Shown here piece by piece: positions 3,426 through 8,002 of a DNA stretch of 64,000 nucleotides. A program made the translations under genes and the position numbers. The stretch comes from Pedobacter sp. JY14-1 (GTDB lineage Bacteria; Bacteroidota; Bacteroidia; Sphingobacteriales; Sphingobacteriaceae): assembly GCF_029269825.1 (NCBI RefSeq), contig NZ_JARJHU010000008.1:124001-188000 (forward strand). The letters are read 5' to 3'. Below the pieces are notes generated by a model. It saw only the letters and a list, made by a program, of their open reading frames with translations. It was not told the DNA's origin and made no database searches. The first letter of the stretch is position 1. Each line of letters starts with the position of its first letter.

Positions 3426-4304
3426 CTATAAATCTTCCAGGAAATCAACCATGTCGCAAACATTTTTCAAGGGTGTCAGCTGGTCATTTACAAGAATATC
3501 GAATTCAGCGATAAGACTCCCCGCAACGATAAGTGGTACATCGATATAATCCATTACCCTGCCAATTACCTTATTGATGTTCTTGCCGAGGTTCAGCGAA
3601 GTCAGCACAATAAAGGCAAAATCGGGATGATAAGATTCAGTGACCTTCTTAAGGTCTGTATAAGGGACCTCGGAACCAAGATAAAGAATATCATGCCCGC
3701 ATTTTTTCAGCAGATAGCGGGCAAAAAGCAAACCGGTTTCCCGCAGTTCATCTTCAGGCAAAAACAACAGGAAGCGTTTTGGCGCCTCAATTTGTGGCTT
3801 TTCCACGCGATCTATTTCCACAATCAGCCGGTCCCTAATCAGGCTGGAAGCAAAATGCTCATGTGACGGATCAATAGCTCCTGTCTGCCATAGCATCCCC
3901 ACCTTTCTCATAAAGGGAAATAAGACAGTATCCATGGTGTTTACCAGTCCCATCTGCGCCACACAACCCGCAAGCACCTGTGAAAAAGTCACTTCATCAT
4001 AAGCTACTGTGGCATCGGAAAGATTGAGTAACTGCACGGAATCATTGTTCCAGTTCATCTTCAACTGGGCGACAAGATCGCCAATCTGCTTTGGCCCCAT
4101 TTCCGCGATCTTACTGATCTTGTACCCATTCTCGTTAAGTGTAACGATGTTGAGCAGCATTTTGAGGTCGTCTTCGTCATAATAGCGGATATTCGTAGAA
4201 GTGCGTTTAGGCGGCACCAGGTTATACCTGCTTTCCCACGCCCGAATGGTGTGCGCCTTAATACCGGTTAGGCCTTCTATGTCGCTGATAGAGAATTTCT
4301 TCAC
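3426..4304 (-). CDS. MerR-family regulator, CarH/LitR-like, with degenerate B12-binding domain
   Basis: 292 residues: an N-terminal MerR helix-turn-helix (about 3-75, IRAWESRYNLVPPKR and RYYDEDDL), a helical-bundle domain (about 95-165) with the Trp139 and Glu149-His150 pair typical of light-sensing B12 regulators, and a Rossmann-like cobalamin-binding domain (175-292). In this family the axial ligand lies in an E-x-x-H-x-x-G type motif; here the stretch is PEDELRETG, so Arg188 stands at the His position. Binding of adenosylcobalamin through His is therefore unlikely, and the protein may act without B12. The start is a GTG preceded by AAAGGA at 4310-4315. It is transcribed away from the DASH cryptochrome gene upstream, in the same direction, and probably controls the photolyase genes beside it, though that is inference. 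Confidence 0.88.
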   Translation of the reverse strand: MKKFSISDIEGLTGIKAHTIRAWESRYNLVPPKRTSTNIRYYDEDDLKMLLNIVTLNENGYKISKIAEMGPKQIGDLVAQLKMNWNNDSVQLLNLSDATVAYDEVTFSQVLAGCVAQMGLVNTMDTVLFPFMRKVGMLWQTGAIDPSHEHFASSLIRDRLIVEIDRVEKPQIEAPKRFLLFLPEDELRETGLLFARYLLKKCGHDILYLGSEVPYTDLKKVTESYHPDFAFIVLTSLNLGKNINKVIGRVMDYIDVPLIVAGSLIAEFDILVNDQLTPLKNVCDMVDFLEDL

Positions 4305-4383: not shown

Positions 4384-5667
4384 CTATGCAACTGAAGTTG
4401 ACTCAGCCGCCGCAGTTTCCAGCAGCTTTATCTGTTTCTCAATATCAAATGCGCCTTTATGTCCTGCTCCCAGTCCTGTCCCTGCAATGTTGGCCCAGTT
4501 GCCCCAGTTGCTTGCGGGCGAATAATCCAGCAACTTTTCTTCAAAATAAGCTGCCCCCTTAGTCCAGTGCCCTCCGGCCACGTGCACGAGAAAAGTAGCG
4601 ACAACCAGACGTGCTGCATGAGGAATAAAACCGGTATTGTTCAGCTCCCTCATGTATCTGTCCACTAAGGCATTACCTGTATTACCAGCCTTCCAGTCCG
4701 CTACCTCGCGGCTATCCGGCATTTCCGGTTCCTGCACAAGTATCTCCAGCCCTGGCTCCCGGAAAAACCTGATGCCGTGCTTTTTAAACATAAAGCGATA
4801 GTAGTCCCGCCAGAGCAGACCAAGCAGTACTTGATTGAAATTTGCGTTTCCCCCGATGCGCTCTTCTGCAGCCTTGAACTTCCAGTAGACCATCCGCGGC
4901 GACAAGCAGCCCAGCGAAAGCCAGGCGGACAACCTTGAAGAAAAACCATTCTTGTCTCCGGTTTTACCCGAAGGTTTATAATAGATAACTGAAGAAGGGG
5001 TCAGCAACTCCTCAAGATGGGCCAGGCCGGCTGCCTCACCTCCCTGCAATGCATCAGGAACAGATTCTTCAACCCCAAAACCAAGATCTTCCGGGCCAGG
5101 CAGTACTCCCCATTCCTCATTTTCCACAAAGCTGATCTTTTCAGGCGTATCAAAGCAGGCCTTTACAACGGCATCGCGCTCCGTCTTCTTTTTAAACTGC
5201 GAGAAAACATCCGGTATGTCCCTGATCGGAAAAGGCAGGTCTTCCTTGTTGTACAAGGTATGACCGATAAAGTGCCTCAGGTTGATCTTCTGCTTCCAGA
5301 GCGCATCTTCGACAGCTGCTGAAATCGCGGTTTCCTCGGGACCGACCTCCCTGTGATGGTAAACCTCGGAAATTTCAAAACGCTCAGTCAAGTTCAAAAT
5401 ATGGTCTTCCGGACGGCCTTTCACCAATAGGATATCTCCGCTAAAACGCTGAAAGGCAGTTCTTAATGCCCGTACACTTTCAATCAGGAAACGACTCCTT
5501 TGAATACCTGTCTTAAGTGTATCAAAGTTTGTGATTTCAAAATACCTGGGATCAAAAAAATAAACCGGGAGTATTCTTTCCGATTTTGCAATGGCCTCTA
5601 CCAGCATTTCGTTATCGTGCAGGCGCAGATCATTCCTAAACCAGACCAGAATTCTTCTAGATTTCAT
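4384..5667 (-). CDS. Cryptochrome/photolyase family protein, DASH type
   Basis: 427-residue flavoprotein of the cryptochrome-DASH branch, which binds FAD and usually a folate antenna and repairs cyclobutane dimers mainly in single-stranded DNA. Seen: the N-terminal photolyase-related Rossmann domain (VWFRNDLRLHDNEML at about 9-23), the FAD domain with LLGLLWRDYYRFM, RYMRELNNTGFIPHAAR, and SNWGNWANIAG. The Asn of the SNxGN segment that sits near the flavin is kept. Odd: the usual GVGND turn is replaced by GTGLG, and the protein stops a few residues after FDIEKQ, whereas most DASH proteins continue through a YDPxG...WxPEL tail. So the C-terminus is short. No rescuing frame was seen downstream. 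A -7 box lies 32 nt upstream. Confidence 0.85.
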   Translation of the reverse strand: MKSRRILVWFRNDLRLHDNEMLVEAIAKSERILPVYFFDPRYFEITNFDTLKTGIQRSRFLIESVRALRTAFQRFSGDILLVKGRPEDHILNLTERFEISEVYHHREVGPEETAISAAVEDALWKQKINLRHFIGHTLYNKEDLPFPIRDIPDVFSQFKKKTERDAVVKACFDTPEKISFVENEEWGVLPGPEDLGFGVEESVPDALQGGEAAGLAHLEELLTPSSVIYYKPSGKTGDKNGFSSRLSAWLSLGCLSPRMVYWKFKAAEERIGGNANFNQVLLGLLWRDYYRFMFKKHGIRFFREPGLEILVQEPEMPDSREVADWKAGNTGNALVDRYMRELNNTGFIPHAARLVVATFLVHVAGGHWTKGAAYFEEKLLDYSPASNWGNWANIAGTGLGAGHKGAFDIEKQIKLLETAAAESTSVA

Positions 5668-5699: not shown

Positions 5700-5707
5700 C
5701 AAAAATA
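5700..5707 (-). promoter_or_regulatory. Candidate -7 box of the DASH cryptochrome gene
   Basis: Minus strand TATTTTTG, 32 nt before the ATG. Just downstream of it the segment at 5683-5692 (TGTTGTGTTA on the plus strand) resembles the TGTTGTTTAACA seen on the minus strand at 4322-4333 in the MerR promoter. Confidence 0.5.
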
Positions 5708-5792
5708 TACGAAATATTAGGTTACTTCGAATCACTTATACAATATTTACACAAGCAAAACAAAAACCAGGGCTACCCGTTAATTTCATAAG

Positions 5793-6701
5793 ATGAAAAG
5801 GCACATTCTTGTTACAGGGGCTTCCGGGCTGGTTGGAAAGCAGTTGATCAGCGAACTGCTCCGGCAAGGCCATACCGTTTCCGCGCTCATACGCAGCAAT
5901 AAACCCATACCAGGTGTCAAAACCTATTTATGGGACATCTATAAAGACACTATAGACCCCGCATGCATAACGGATGCAGATACCATCATCCACCTCGCCG
6001 GAGAAAGCATTGCCGGAAAGAAATGGAGTACAGCTTATAAACAACAGGTCATCGACAGCAGGGTCAAGTCTACCCAACTTCTGCAAAAACTGATCAGGGA
6101 CACCAATGCCCCTGTCGGATCATTTATTTCAGCTGCCGCGGTGGGTTATTACGGCGACTGCGGGGACGAAATCCTTTCCGAAACCTCTGCTAACGGATAT
6201 GGCTTTATGGCAGAATGCTGTGCACAATGGGAAGATGCCATTGACAAAGGACGCCGGCTTGGTATGCGTATTGTCAAGTTCAGGCTCGGCGTAGTCCTGT
6301 CCAAAGACGGAGGCGCACTCGCTTCGTTCGAAAAGCCCATCCGCTTCTTTACCGGGGCACCGCTGGGCAGCGGCAAGCAATGGATTCCATGGGTGCACAT
6401 TGACGACATCGTCAGCATGTTCATCAAGGCCCTGGACAATACGGCATTCAATGGCGTCTACAATGCCTGCGCCCCGTTCCCGGTAACCAACGAGACCCTA
6501 ACCAAAACCATAGCGAAAACACTTCGCCGACCGGTCTGGCCATTTCATGTCCCGGAAAAAGTAATTCGCATGCTCCTTGGAGAGATGAGCACAATCGTCC
6601 TTACCAGCACCAATACTTCTGCTCAAAAGCTCCTCGATGAAGGCTTCCGTTTCAAATATACGCACCTGGAAGACGCCCTTGCTGCAATTTATACCAAATG
6701 A
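5793..6701 (+). CDS. TIGR01777-family NAD(P)-binding epimerase/oxidoreductase
   Basis: 302 residues of the extended short-chain dehydrogenase superfamily, the YfcH/TIGR01777 group. The glycine-rich nucleotide site is GASGLVGKQL at about residues 8-17. Further family marks are HLAGESIAGKKW (about 67-78), SAAAVGYYGDCGDE with the catalytic-type Tyr, and WVHIDDI. The substrate of this family is unknown. The last codon overlaps the photolyase start (ATGA at 6698-6701), so the two genes are translated as a pair. In Bacteroidota such epimerases often sit beside photolyase genes, which hints at a role in the same light-related response. Confidence 0.9.
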   Translation: MKRHILVTGASGLVGKQLISELLRQGHTVSALIRSNKPIPGVKTYLWDIYKDTIDPACITDADTIIHLAGESIAGKKWSTAYKQQVIDSRVKSTQLLQKLIRDTNAPVGSFISAAAVGYYGDCGDEILSETSANGYGFMAECCAQWEDAIDKGRRLGMRIVKFRLGVVLSKDGGALASFEKPIRFFTGAPLGSGKQWIPWVHIDDIVSMFIKALDNTAFNGVYNACAPFPVTNETLTKTIAKTLRRPVWPFHVPEKVIRMLLGEMSTIVLTSTNTSAQKLLDEGFRFKYTHLEDALAAIYTK

Positions 6702-8002
6702 AGAAAGAAATCAGCATCTGCTGGCTCCGCCGCGACCTGCGACTGGCAGATAATGCTGCGCTCTACCATGCGCTAAAAGGTCCCTATCCTGTACTCCTGT
6801 TGTTCATCTTCGATAAGAATATCCTTGATAAACTGGAGAATCCTGGGGATACACGTGTCACCTTTATACATGATGTTCTAACCGGACTTAACAAGGAACT
6901 GGAGCAGCACCATTCCAGCATCCTTGTCAAATACGGCACACCTGAAACCGTGTGGCAGGAAATAGTCGGAGCCCATCATATAAGGGCGGTGTACACAAAT
7001 CATGACTATGAGCCGCAAGCATGCCGACGGGATGATACGCTGGCCGAATTTCTTGCTTCTGAAGGCATTACCTTTCATACTTTCAAAGACCAGGTTCTTT
7101 TCGATAAAAATGAAATCCTCAAAGGAGACGGCACTCCATACACCGTCTTTACACCTTATTTCAGACAATGGCAGCAAAAGCTGGAAGAATTCTATTACAA
7201 ATCCTACCCAAGCCAGAAATATCTCGGTAAGCTCTTGCACATTTCCCGACAGCAGGTACCTGCCTTAGAGACGTTGGGTTTCTTACGCTCCGCACAGGAA
7301 ATACCATCCGTTAACTTTGAGGATAAACTTGAGGATTATGAAAGGTTACGGGACCTTCCGGGGGCGGATGCGACAACGCGTATCGGTCTGCACCTGCGCT
7401 TCGGTACAGTCAGCATCCGAAAAGCCGTATCAGAAGCCATCCGCCAGAAGGCAGACAAATGGCTTTCGGAGCTTGCCTGGCGGGATTTTTACATGATGAT
7501 CCTCTGGCATTTTCCGCACACCAGCACACAATCCTTTAAACCAGCATACGACAATATCCGGTGGAGAAACAACGAAACCGAATTTAAGGCCTGGTGCGAA
7601 GGAAGAACCGGTTACCCACTGGTAGACGCCGGTATGCGGCAGCTGAACCAGACTGGCTTTATGCACAACCGCGTTCGCATGGTCGCCGCCAGTTTTCTGA
7701 CCAAGCACCTGCTCATCGACTGGCGCTGGGGTGAAGCCTATTTTGCTGAAAAGCTTCTGGACTATGAAATGTCCAGCAACATAGGTGGCTGGCAATGGGC
7801 CTGTGGCTCCGGTAACGATGCAGCCCCATATTTCAGGGTTTTTAATCCAGAACTACAGTCAAAGAAATTTGATCCGGATCAAAAGTACATCGACCGCTGG
7901 CTGCCGGAGTATAAGCAAAAAAAGCATGTTCAGCCCATCGTTGAACATGCCTTTGCAAGGGAAAGAGCACTAAAGGTCTTTAAAACAGCACTAAATGTCT
8001 GA
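6698..8002 (+). CDS. phrB: Deoxyribodipyrimidine photolyase, class I
   Basis: 434-residue FAD enzyme that splits cyclobutane pyrimidine dimers with blue light. Seen: antenna-binding N-terminal domain opening ICWLRRDLRLADNAALYHAL, then the FAD domain with LSELAWRDFYMMI, GRTGYPLVDAGMRQL, HNRVRMVAASFL, LLDYEMSSNIGGWQW and DAAPYFRVFNP. The flavin-site Asn and the Trp residues of the electron chain are in place, and the length is normal. It is coupled to the epimerase gene by a 4-nt overlap and probably shares its promoter, in the 125-nt gap at 5668-5792 that it faces with the DASH gene. Its 3' end carries the terminator of the opposing FKBP operon. Confidence 0.95.
   Translation: MKKEISICWLRRDLRLADNAALYHALKGPYPVLLLFIFDKNILDKLENPGDTRVTFIHDVLTGLNKELEQHHSSILVKYGTPETVWQEIVGAHHIRAVYTNHDYEPQACRRDDTLAEFLASEGITFHTFKDQVLFDKNEILKGDGTPYTVFTPYFRQWQQKLEEFYYKSYPSQKYLGKLLHISRQQVPALETLGFLRSAQEIPSVNFEDKLEDYERLRDLPGADATTRIGLHLRFGTVSIRKAVSEAIRQKADKWLSELAWRDFYMMILWHFPHTSTQSFKPAYDNIRWRNNETEFKAWCEGRTGYPLVDAGMRQLNQTGFMHNRVRMVAASFLTKHLLIDWRWGEAYFAEKLLDYEMSSNIGGWQWACGSGNDAAPYFRVFNPELQSKKFDPDQKYIDRWLPEYKQKKHVQPIVEHAFARERALKVFKTALNV
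7917..7950 (-). terminator. Rho-independent terminator of the FKBP operon, inside phrB
   Basis: Minus strand: perfect 9-bp stem GCATGTTCA / TGAACATGC with a 9-nt loop (7924-7950), followed at once by seven T (7917-7923). It lies 58 nt past the FKBP stop codon, inside the coding 3' end of the convergent photolyase gene, where it encodes the KKHVQPIVEHA region. Confidence 0.75.

Follow-up and report, generated by a model that had tools for sequence, protein, structure and literature searches.

A photolyase-linked, CarH-like regulator of Pedobacter sp. JY14-1 with arginine in place of the lower axial histidine of the cobalamin site

INTRODUCTION

What becomes of a CarH-like regulator when arginine takes the place of the histidine expected to ligate cobalamin? 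The question is raised by a gene in a 64,000-nucleotide stretch of Pedobacter sp. JY14-1 DNA (contig NZ_JARJHU010000008.1, positions 124,001 to 188,000; here called the window) that lies beside genes of the photolyase/cryptochrome family. In CarH, this histidine holds adenosylcobalamin (AdoCbl) base-off; the H177A variant of Thermus CarH binds no B12, forms no tetramer and is monomeric, and the corresponding Myxococcus xanthus H193A variant loses function (PMC8221060, PMC4557120; here and below, papers are cited from the portions of their text that were available). A sequence-only reading of the window had noted the arginine and suggested that the domain may have lost B12 or may bind it without histidine, giving a light-independent regulator that still sits by photolyase genes. 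Here, that proposal is followed up by comparison of the protein, its locus and its genome with relatives across the genus and the phylum.

RESULTS

The regulator has CarH architecture and lacks the lower ligand

The regulator frame reads on the minus strand from 4304 to 3426 (Table 1), and residues are numbered from its GTG start. Pfam recognized the MerR helix-turn-helix and the helical bundle (B12-binding_2, PF02607); PF02310, the model for the Rossmann part, was unmatched. PF02310 was likewise unmatched at E<=0.1 in two of the seven His-bearing genus orthologues scanned (L003 and L035), and the remaining scanned relatives matched it, but below its cut-off. HMMER aligned residues 4-222 with Thermus CarH/LitR (3whp, E 5.9e-19; 5c8d, E 7.1e-19), pairing W139 with W131, Q140 with H132, E149/H150 with E141/H142 and R188 with H177 of the E-x-H-x-x-G motif (CarH numbering from PMC11796333). 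An AlphaFold model built on a 26-row alignment (mean pLDDT, 87.3) comprised the bundle and a Rossmann module, and its best solved matches, namely, CarH, CtMerR and the photocobilins, covered approximately residues 81-292, with CarH domain chains matching at Z scores of 17 to 18 and about 2.7 A. This structural match indicates that, in the predicted fold, the Rossmann part is present despite the missing PF02310 match. The alignment and the model thus bear out the earlier description of the protein as CarH/LitR-like, the retention of its tryptophan and Glu-His pair, and the register that set Arg188 on the ligand histidine.

Table 1. Features of the regulator locus (positions within the window)
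Feature	Position	Strand	Description or evidence
CarH/LitR-like regulator	3426..4304	-	292 aa, GTG start; MerR HTH, four-helix bundle, Rossmann module
MerR domain of regulator	4098..4295	-	Pfam MerR_1 (PF13411), E 9.1e-18
Wx9EH motif, W139 to H150, kept	3855..3890	-	Thermus CarH alignment
Arg188 codon CGG, equivalent to lower axial ligand His177 of Thermus CarH	3741..3743	-	Alignment and codon reading
DASH-type cryptochrome gene, upstream of regulator	4384..5667	-	TIGR02765, 352 bits, cut-off 317
65-bp divergent intergenic block, putative shared promoter and operator	5700..5764	.	Alignment, 43/43 loci
TIGR01777 (YfcH-like) SDR oxidoreductase, divergent from cryptochrome gene	5793..6701	+	TIGR01777, 307 bits, above cut-off
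Second photolyase-family gene, overlapping end of SDR gene	6698..8002	+	Pfam DNA_photolyase, FAD_binding_7

The protein therefore shares with CarH and class I LitR (Thermus CarH, 5c8d; CtMerR, 8jbs) the MerR helix-turn-helix, the Wx9EH bundle and the Rossmann module, as judged from sequence and predicted structure, and differs from them at both axial positions. The motif region reads W139, Q140, H148-E149-H150 and P183-EDEL-R188-ETG191, such that the histidine of D/E-x-H-x-x-G is missing from E186-L-R188-E-T-G191 and the upper-ligand position (His132 of CarH) is Gln140. The glutamine, found in all 53 orthologue rows that have letters in this column, is by itself uninformative because SasPcob, a working photoreceptor, also has glutamine at the upper-ligand position (PMC11796333). 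It is the absence of the lower histidine that means the protein cannot be classed as a CarH photoreceptor; it may still act as a CarH-like repressor. The NCBIfam CarH equivalog (NF052513) scored the regulator at 88.1 bits and its cut-off of 400 was not reached.

The fold also raised the idea that the pocket holds a different ligand, such as haem. The SCHIC domain of AppA, which binds haem in a cobalamin-domain fold (PMC9144470), matched the predicted structure at Z 16.4 (2.8 A over 200 residues), but likeness to SCHIC was common to all cobalamin domains in the match list, and the SCHIC histidine lies two residues away on a longer loop, with no such histidine in the Pedobacter protein (PMC9144470). 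We regard a haem pocket as extremely improbable.

No other histidine replaces the ligand

A different histidine serving as ligand would have undone the earlier argument, and it was sought among the five histidines of the regulator by sequence comparison with 53 orthologues; no replacement was found. H18, H148, H150 and H204 are common to many or all of the orthologues. H226 is nearly private to this protein (histidine in 1 of 53 orthologues). It precedes the strand at 229-233 of the predicted structure, which probably puts it on the side of the sheet opposite the B12 edge. The remaining B12-edge residues agree with those of the orthologues.

The codon also bears on whether the arginine is real. 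It is CGG, read from 3743 to 3741, and the orthologues encode their histidine as CAT (39) or CAC (13) and in no other way; since CGG is two changes from either, one miscall cannot explain the arginine. The frame is intact, and the assembly comprises 9 contigs at 99.67% completeness. That the arginine arose as an error of sequencing or assembly, or is a rare polymorphism in the strain sequenced, is accordingly highly improbable, even with a comparison that covered one genome of this species. CGG is an ordinary arginine codon here (51 of 224 in ten window genes), so its recurrence in one other Arg-bearing orthologue, L172, means little; a third, L177, has CGT.

Arginine at the ligand position is rare

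Genus genomes were surveyed for the orthologue at the photolyase locus, with copies sorted by identity and coverage, and it was found in 55 of 145, that of JY14-1 included. The other 54 carry histidine in 52 cases (the truncated L176 among them) and arginine in two, L172 and L177; column 188 is histidine in 52 of 53 full-length orthologues. L172 (4922-5875 in another genus genome, G185, at the same locus) is the only other intact orthologue with arginine, and its Glu-His pair has become Gly-Tyr. At this locus, the regulator is damaged in two cases: L176 (5771-6352) is truncated, and L177 (5255-5578) is a decayed fragment with a stop. Among 136 distinct relatives besides the query, drawn from the genus, the family and named contigs and counted without L001 (identical to the query) and 24 rows whose last 200 residues duplicate those of another row, the ligand was His in 132, Arg in 2, Asn in 1 and Gln in 1. 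A phylum-wide draw of 392 genomes yielded 90 with a match and 102 places, of which 98 were read anew (G000, G050, G035 and G021 left out); these gave His in 91, Gln in 3, Ser in 2, Ala in 1, Leu in 1 and Arg in none. Histidine thus occupies the column in 223 of 234 relatives overall. Arginine occurs in 2 of the 54 other genus genomes with the orthologue, in one of which the copy is a decayed fragment, and in none of the 98 phylum rows; the idea that it is a family trait was rejected. Since 52 of 53 orthologues have histidine and the single other intact Arg case also lacks EH, the sequence comparison points to a lineage-specific loss and not to a B12-free class of regulators. The sequence-only reading, which was right about the CarH-like protein, the arginine, the retained W and EH and the locus, had overlooked that the loss is specific to this lineage.

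Common descent of the arginines of JY14-1 and L172 was not supported by a tree computed without columns 149, 150 and 188, in which L172 fell in a starred set of seven rows (98/98) that excludes the query; the tree does not fix the query's own position, and that of L172 is less sure because its end branch is long.

Tryptophan, glutamate and histidine of the adenosyl pocket were all present in 221 of the 233 relatives with letters there. Loss of at least one of the three was seen in 7 of the 10 rows that lack the ligand histidine, compared with 5 of the 223 that have it (Fisher P = 1.3e-8, kinship ignored; the query was left out, as was L177, whose W/EH columns are gaps). Apart from the query, the rows retaining all three residues in the absence of the ligand histidine are L193 (Gln), L228 (Ser) and L250 (Gln). 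Seven Bacteroidota copies without the ligand histidine, having Ser, Ala, Gln or Leu instead, are L222, L224, L226, L228, L234, L250 and L284, and five of the seven come from genomes listing more than one copy.

Searches of open-licence PMC text brought up no paper on a Pedobacter or other Bacteroidota CarH with arginine in this column, and in the literature so consulted there is no regulator with W-E-H kept and the lower histidine alone changed to arginine.

The regulator gene is not visibly decaying

Loss of the ligand could mark a gene on its way out: without AdoCbl, the repressor would neither oligomerize nor bind DNA, the photolyase genes would be constitutive, and the gene would be in the course of being lost. 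Such a dead repressor accords with the monomeric state of apo-CarH H177A (PMC8221060), and decay does occur at this locus, as the truncated L176, the stop-bearing fragment L177 and the fast-evolving L172 illustrate. Rates of the regulator were compared with those of three flanking genes in 40 rows, leaving out L011, L176 and L177. The query regulator ranked 7th of 40; by domain, its DNA-binding part ranked 22nd, at about the median rate, its bundle 9th and its Rossmann part 5th (0.657 versus a median of 0.591). L172 was the fastest of the 40 overall and ranked 1st in the DNA-binding domain, 3rd in the bundle and 2nd in the Rossmann part. Near-invariant sites show 4 changes in the query (E117Q, K133R, N154S and H188R) and 11 in L172. 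A dN/dS test by branch was impossible because synonymous sites are saturated (0.65-1.1 synonymous differences per site). With an intact frame, and with a codon two changes from histidine, which implies that the arginine is probably not brand new, the query regulator appears from its sequence not to be visibly decaying, its sensor part evolving slightly above the median rate. We therefore consider a dead repressor unlikely.

The locus and a 65-bp divergent block are conserved

The gene order sucA-regulator-cryDASH|SDR is conserved. The sucA, regulator and cryptochrome genes adjoin in 54 of 54 orthologue rows, and the SDR gene comes next in all 42 rows whose flank reaches far enough; 40 of those 42 have the photolyase gene, which is absent at L011, and at L151 the flank is short. 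In JY14-1, the DASH cryptochrome and the photolyase-family neighbor, which NCBIfam photolyase models match only below their cut-offs, confirm the placement of the regulator beside photolyase genes; this separates it from CarH and class I LitR beside crt genes. The block between the cryptochrome and SDR genes was 64-65 bp long in all 43 loci aligned, the query included, and of its 30 columns conserved in at least 90% of rows, the query keeps 29 (range across rows, 26 to 30). The block presumably serves as promoter and operator. With up to 3 mismatches allowed, its core matched once in the genome (the reversed control gave 3 matches), and in the window it matched once where 0.01 matches were expected, so that a search for further targets yielded none beyond this single genome match. 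The locus of the decayed L177 keeps the 65-bp block too.

Class II LitR proteins of Pseudomonas (PplR and PmlR2) offer another comparison: they are a B12-independent family with light-induced photolyase/cryptochrome-like genes, the C-terminal half resembles the B12 domain only slightly, and the adjacent gene codes for a short LOV protein (PMC9758184). The Pedobacter regulator differs in that its Rossmann part is CarH-like, by alignment to residue 222 and by predicted structure, and in that no LOV gene was found among the neighbors and the PAS_9 places read. Light sensing could, on this pattern, have passed to a partner acting as anti-repressor, for example, the short BLUF protein of the genome, with BluF on BluR and short LOV on class II LitR as modes of action; in Pseudomonas, a class II LitR located next to repair genes is under the control of a short LOV protein (PMC9758184). 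The JY14-1 genome has one BLUF-domain frame, a short single-domain protein of 160 aa (L096, 1474-1953, contig C5), but it lies on another contig, and the genome of L172 has no BLUF. BLUF frames occur in 45 of 145 genus genomes, in 10 of the 55 with the orthologue versus 35 of the 90 others, which shows no link and counts against BLUF as the partner. Scans with Pfam and NCBIfam revealed no LOV partner gene among the neighbors, and the 30 places read, of 34 with PAS_9, contain no in-frame LOV core motif. We hold a partner of this kind to be very unlikely.

Cobalamin use in the genome

The JY14-1 genome encodes a cobalamin adenosyltransferase (contig C1:161685-162176), as do 142 of 145 genus genomes counted with it, and MetH, so that the cell, by its gene content, is predicted to use cobalamin and to be able to adenosylate it; loss of the B12 supply as the reason for ligand loss was not supported. 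Methylmalonyl-CoA mutase gave zero matches, B12-dependent ribonucleotide reductase was not found (its model matched only below cut-off), and the ribonucleotide reductase is a class I NrdA. A second PF02310 match in the genome (25.2 bits, below cut-off) falls in a 497-aa frame whose start, by eye, resembles IMP dehydrogenase. The families searched yielded no other user of AdoCbl, which mildly suggests that the regulator might be one; this argument carries little weight, given that the adenosyltransferase is also encoded in 17 of 19 genus genomes that lack the regulator.

A second CarH paralogue occurs in the genus, with 32-45% identity over the aligned part. At both loci checked (L083, 5035-9275; L068, 2467-5821), it lies beside crtI and a phytoene-synthase-like gene, and at one of the two beside an isopentenyl-diphosphate isomerase gene as well; it is likely the carotenoid CarH. 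Of its copies in the genus, those read, a part of the places matched, all have histidine at the ligand position except L193. The JY14-1 genome has the photolyase-linked copy only, without this second paralogue.

DISCUSSION

The reading that we put first, at about an even chance of being correct, is that the protein is a CarH of a photolyase operon in whose lineage His-on binding of cobalamin, and with it direct B12 light sensing, was lost. The gene belongs to an orthologous group of CarH-like, photolyase-linked regulators that occupies a conserved locus in the genus, and the loss would have come in the query lineage when that group already existed with histidine. Without the lower histidine, AdoCbl would not be held in the base-off/His-on state that makes CarH a light-sensitive tetramer, and the regulator would therefore be blind to light through B12. 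If active, it would bind the cryptochrome|SDR promoter as an apo-regulator, independently of AdoCbl photolysis. Such regulation may be likened to that of the B12-independent CarA of M. xanthus, a CarH relative, reached by another route, since in CarA it is the tryptophan that was lost, with the His motif and EH retained (PMC9304148), whereas the Pedobacter protein has kept the tryptophan and lost the histidine.

The first choice follows from the CarH mutants together with HaAI-2E, a membrane exporter/cyclase protein and not a MerR regulator, whose cobalamin-like domain likewise has arginine at the H177 position, judged to leave scant room for AdoCbl (PMC11796333). It is favored by the tendency, in the sequences compared, of histidine loss to go with loss of W, E or H, as would be expected if cobalamin binding had been abandoned, and of which L172 appears to be an independent Arg case; it is also consistent with a regulator that seems not to be decaying and with the kept promoter block. 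Against it, W139, E149 and H150 are retained, an uncommon combination for a copy blind to B12 (it is seen in 3 of 10 rows that lack the histidine). The Rossmann part also evolves a little faster than the median, although its other B12-edge residues agree with those of the orthologues. The kept adenosyltransferase weakly hints at use of AdoCbl by the regulator. The decayed L177 also keeps the promoter block, and DNA binding is putative.

The strongest novel rival, argued by analogy, is His-off binding over arginine: AdoCbl would still be bound base-off/His-off with Arg188 unligated under the cobalt, giving a photoreceptor with five-coordinate, shorter-wavelength AdoCbl. Base-off alkylcobalamins are blue-shifted. 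The more specific proposal is a natural His-off photoreceptor in which Arg188 caps AdoCbl, W139, E149 and H150 hold the adenosyl group, and a blue-shifted switch controls the photolyase genes. Retention of these three residues and of the other B12-edge residues fits His-off binding, as does the want of another AdoCbl user among the families searched. Arginines under the cobalt in TsrM (Arg69) and QueG block ligation, leaving no lower ligand, and cobalamin stays bound (PMC8992657, PMC13331322). These precedents would hold in principle and not in position: both proteins are enzymes, and the arginine of TsrM lies on a different loop of the domain, the one following strand 3 and not the one with E-x-H-x-x-G (PMC13331322). 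CarH H177A, which binds no B12 (PMC8221060, PMC4557120), and the crowded site of HaAI-2E (PMC11796333) also argue against it. Of the two options left by the sequence-only reading, the published mutants would, by analogy, favor B12 loss, with the Arg-capped sites leaving room for B12 held without histidine; we judge His-off binding to be rather unlikely, and the natural His-off photoreceptor in its specific form quite unlikely.

B12-independent relatives of CarH are already known, in CarA (PMC9304148) and in class II LitR by repair genes (PMC9758184). What the Pedobacter regulator adds is a natural experiment on a residue thought to be essential for CarH, in which the ligand has been lost and the adenosyl pocket kept in a constrained orthologue, with the locus and the promoter block unchanged around it. 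Among Bacteroidota relatives, the ligand histidine has been lost repeatedly, usually together with W, E or H, and this joint loss provides a simple sequence rule for B12-blind copies. Comparison with His-bearing orthologues that are up to 80% identical could reveal whether a small number of changes is enough to make a CarH B12-independent or to let it hold cobalamin with no lower ligand.
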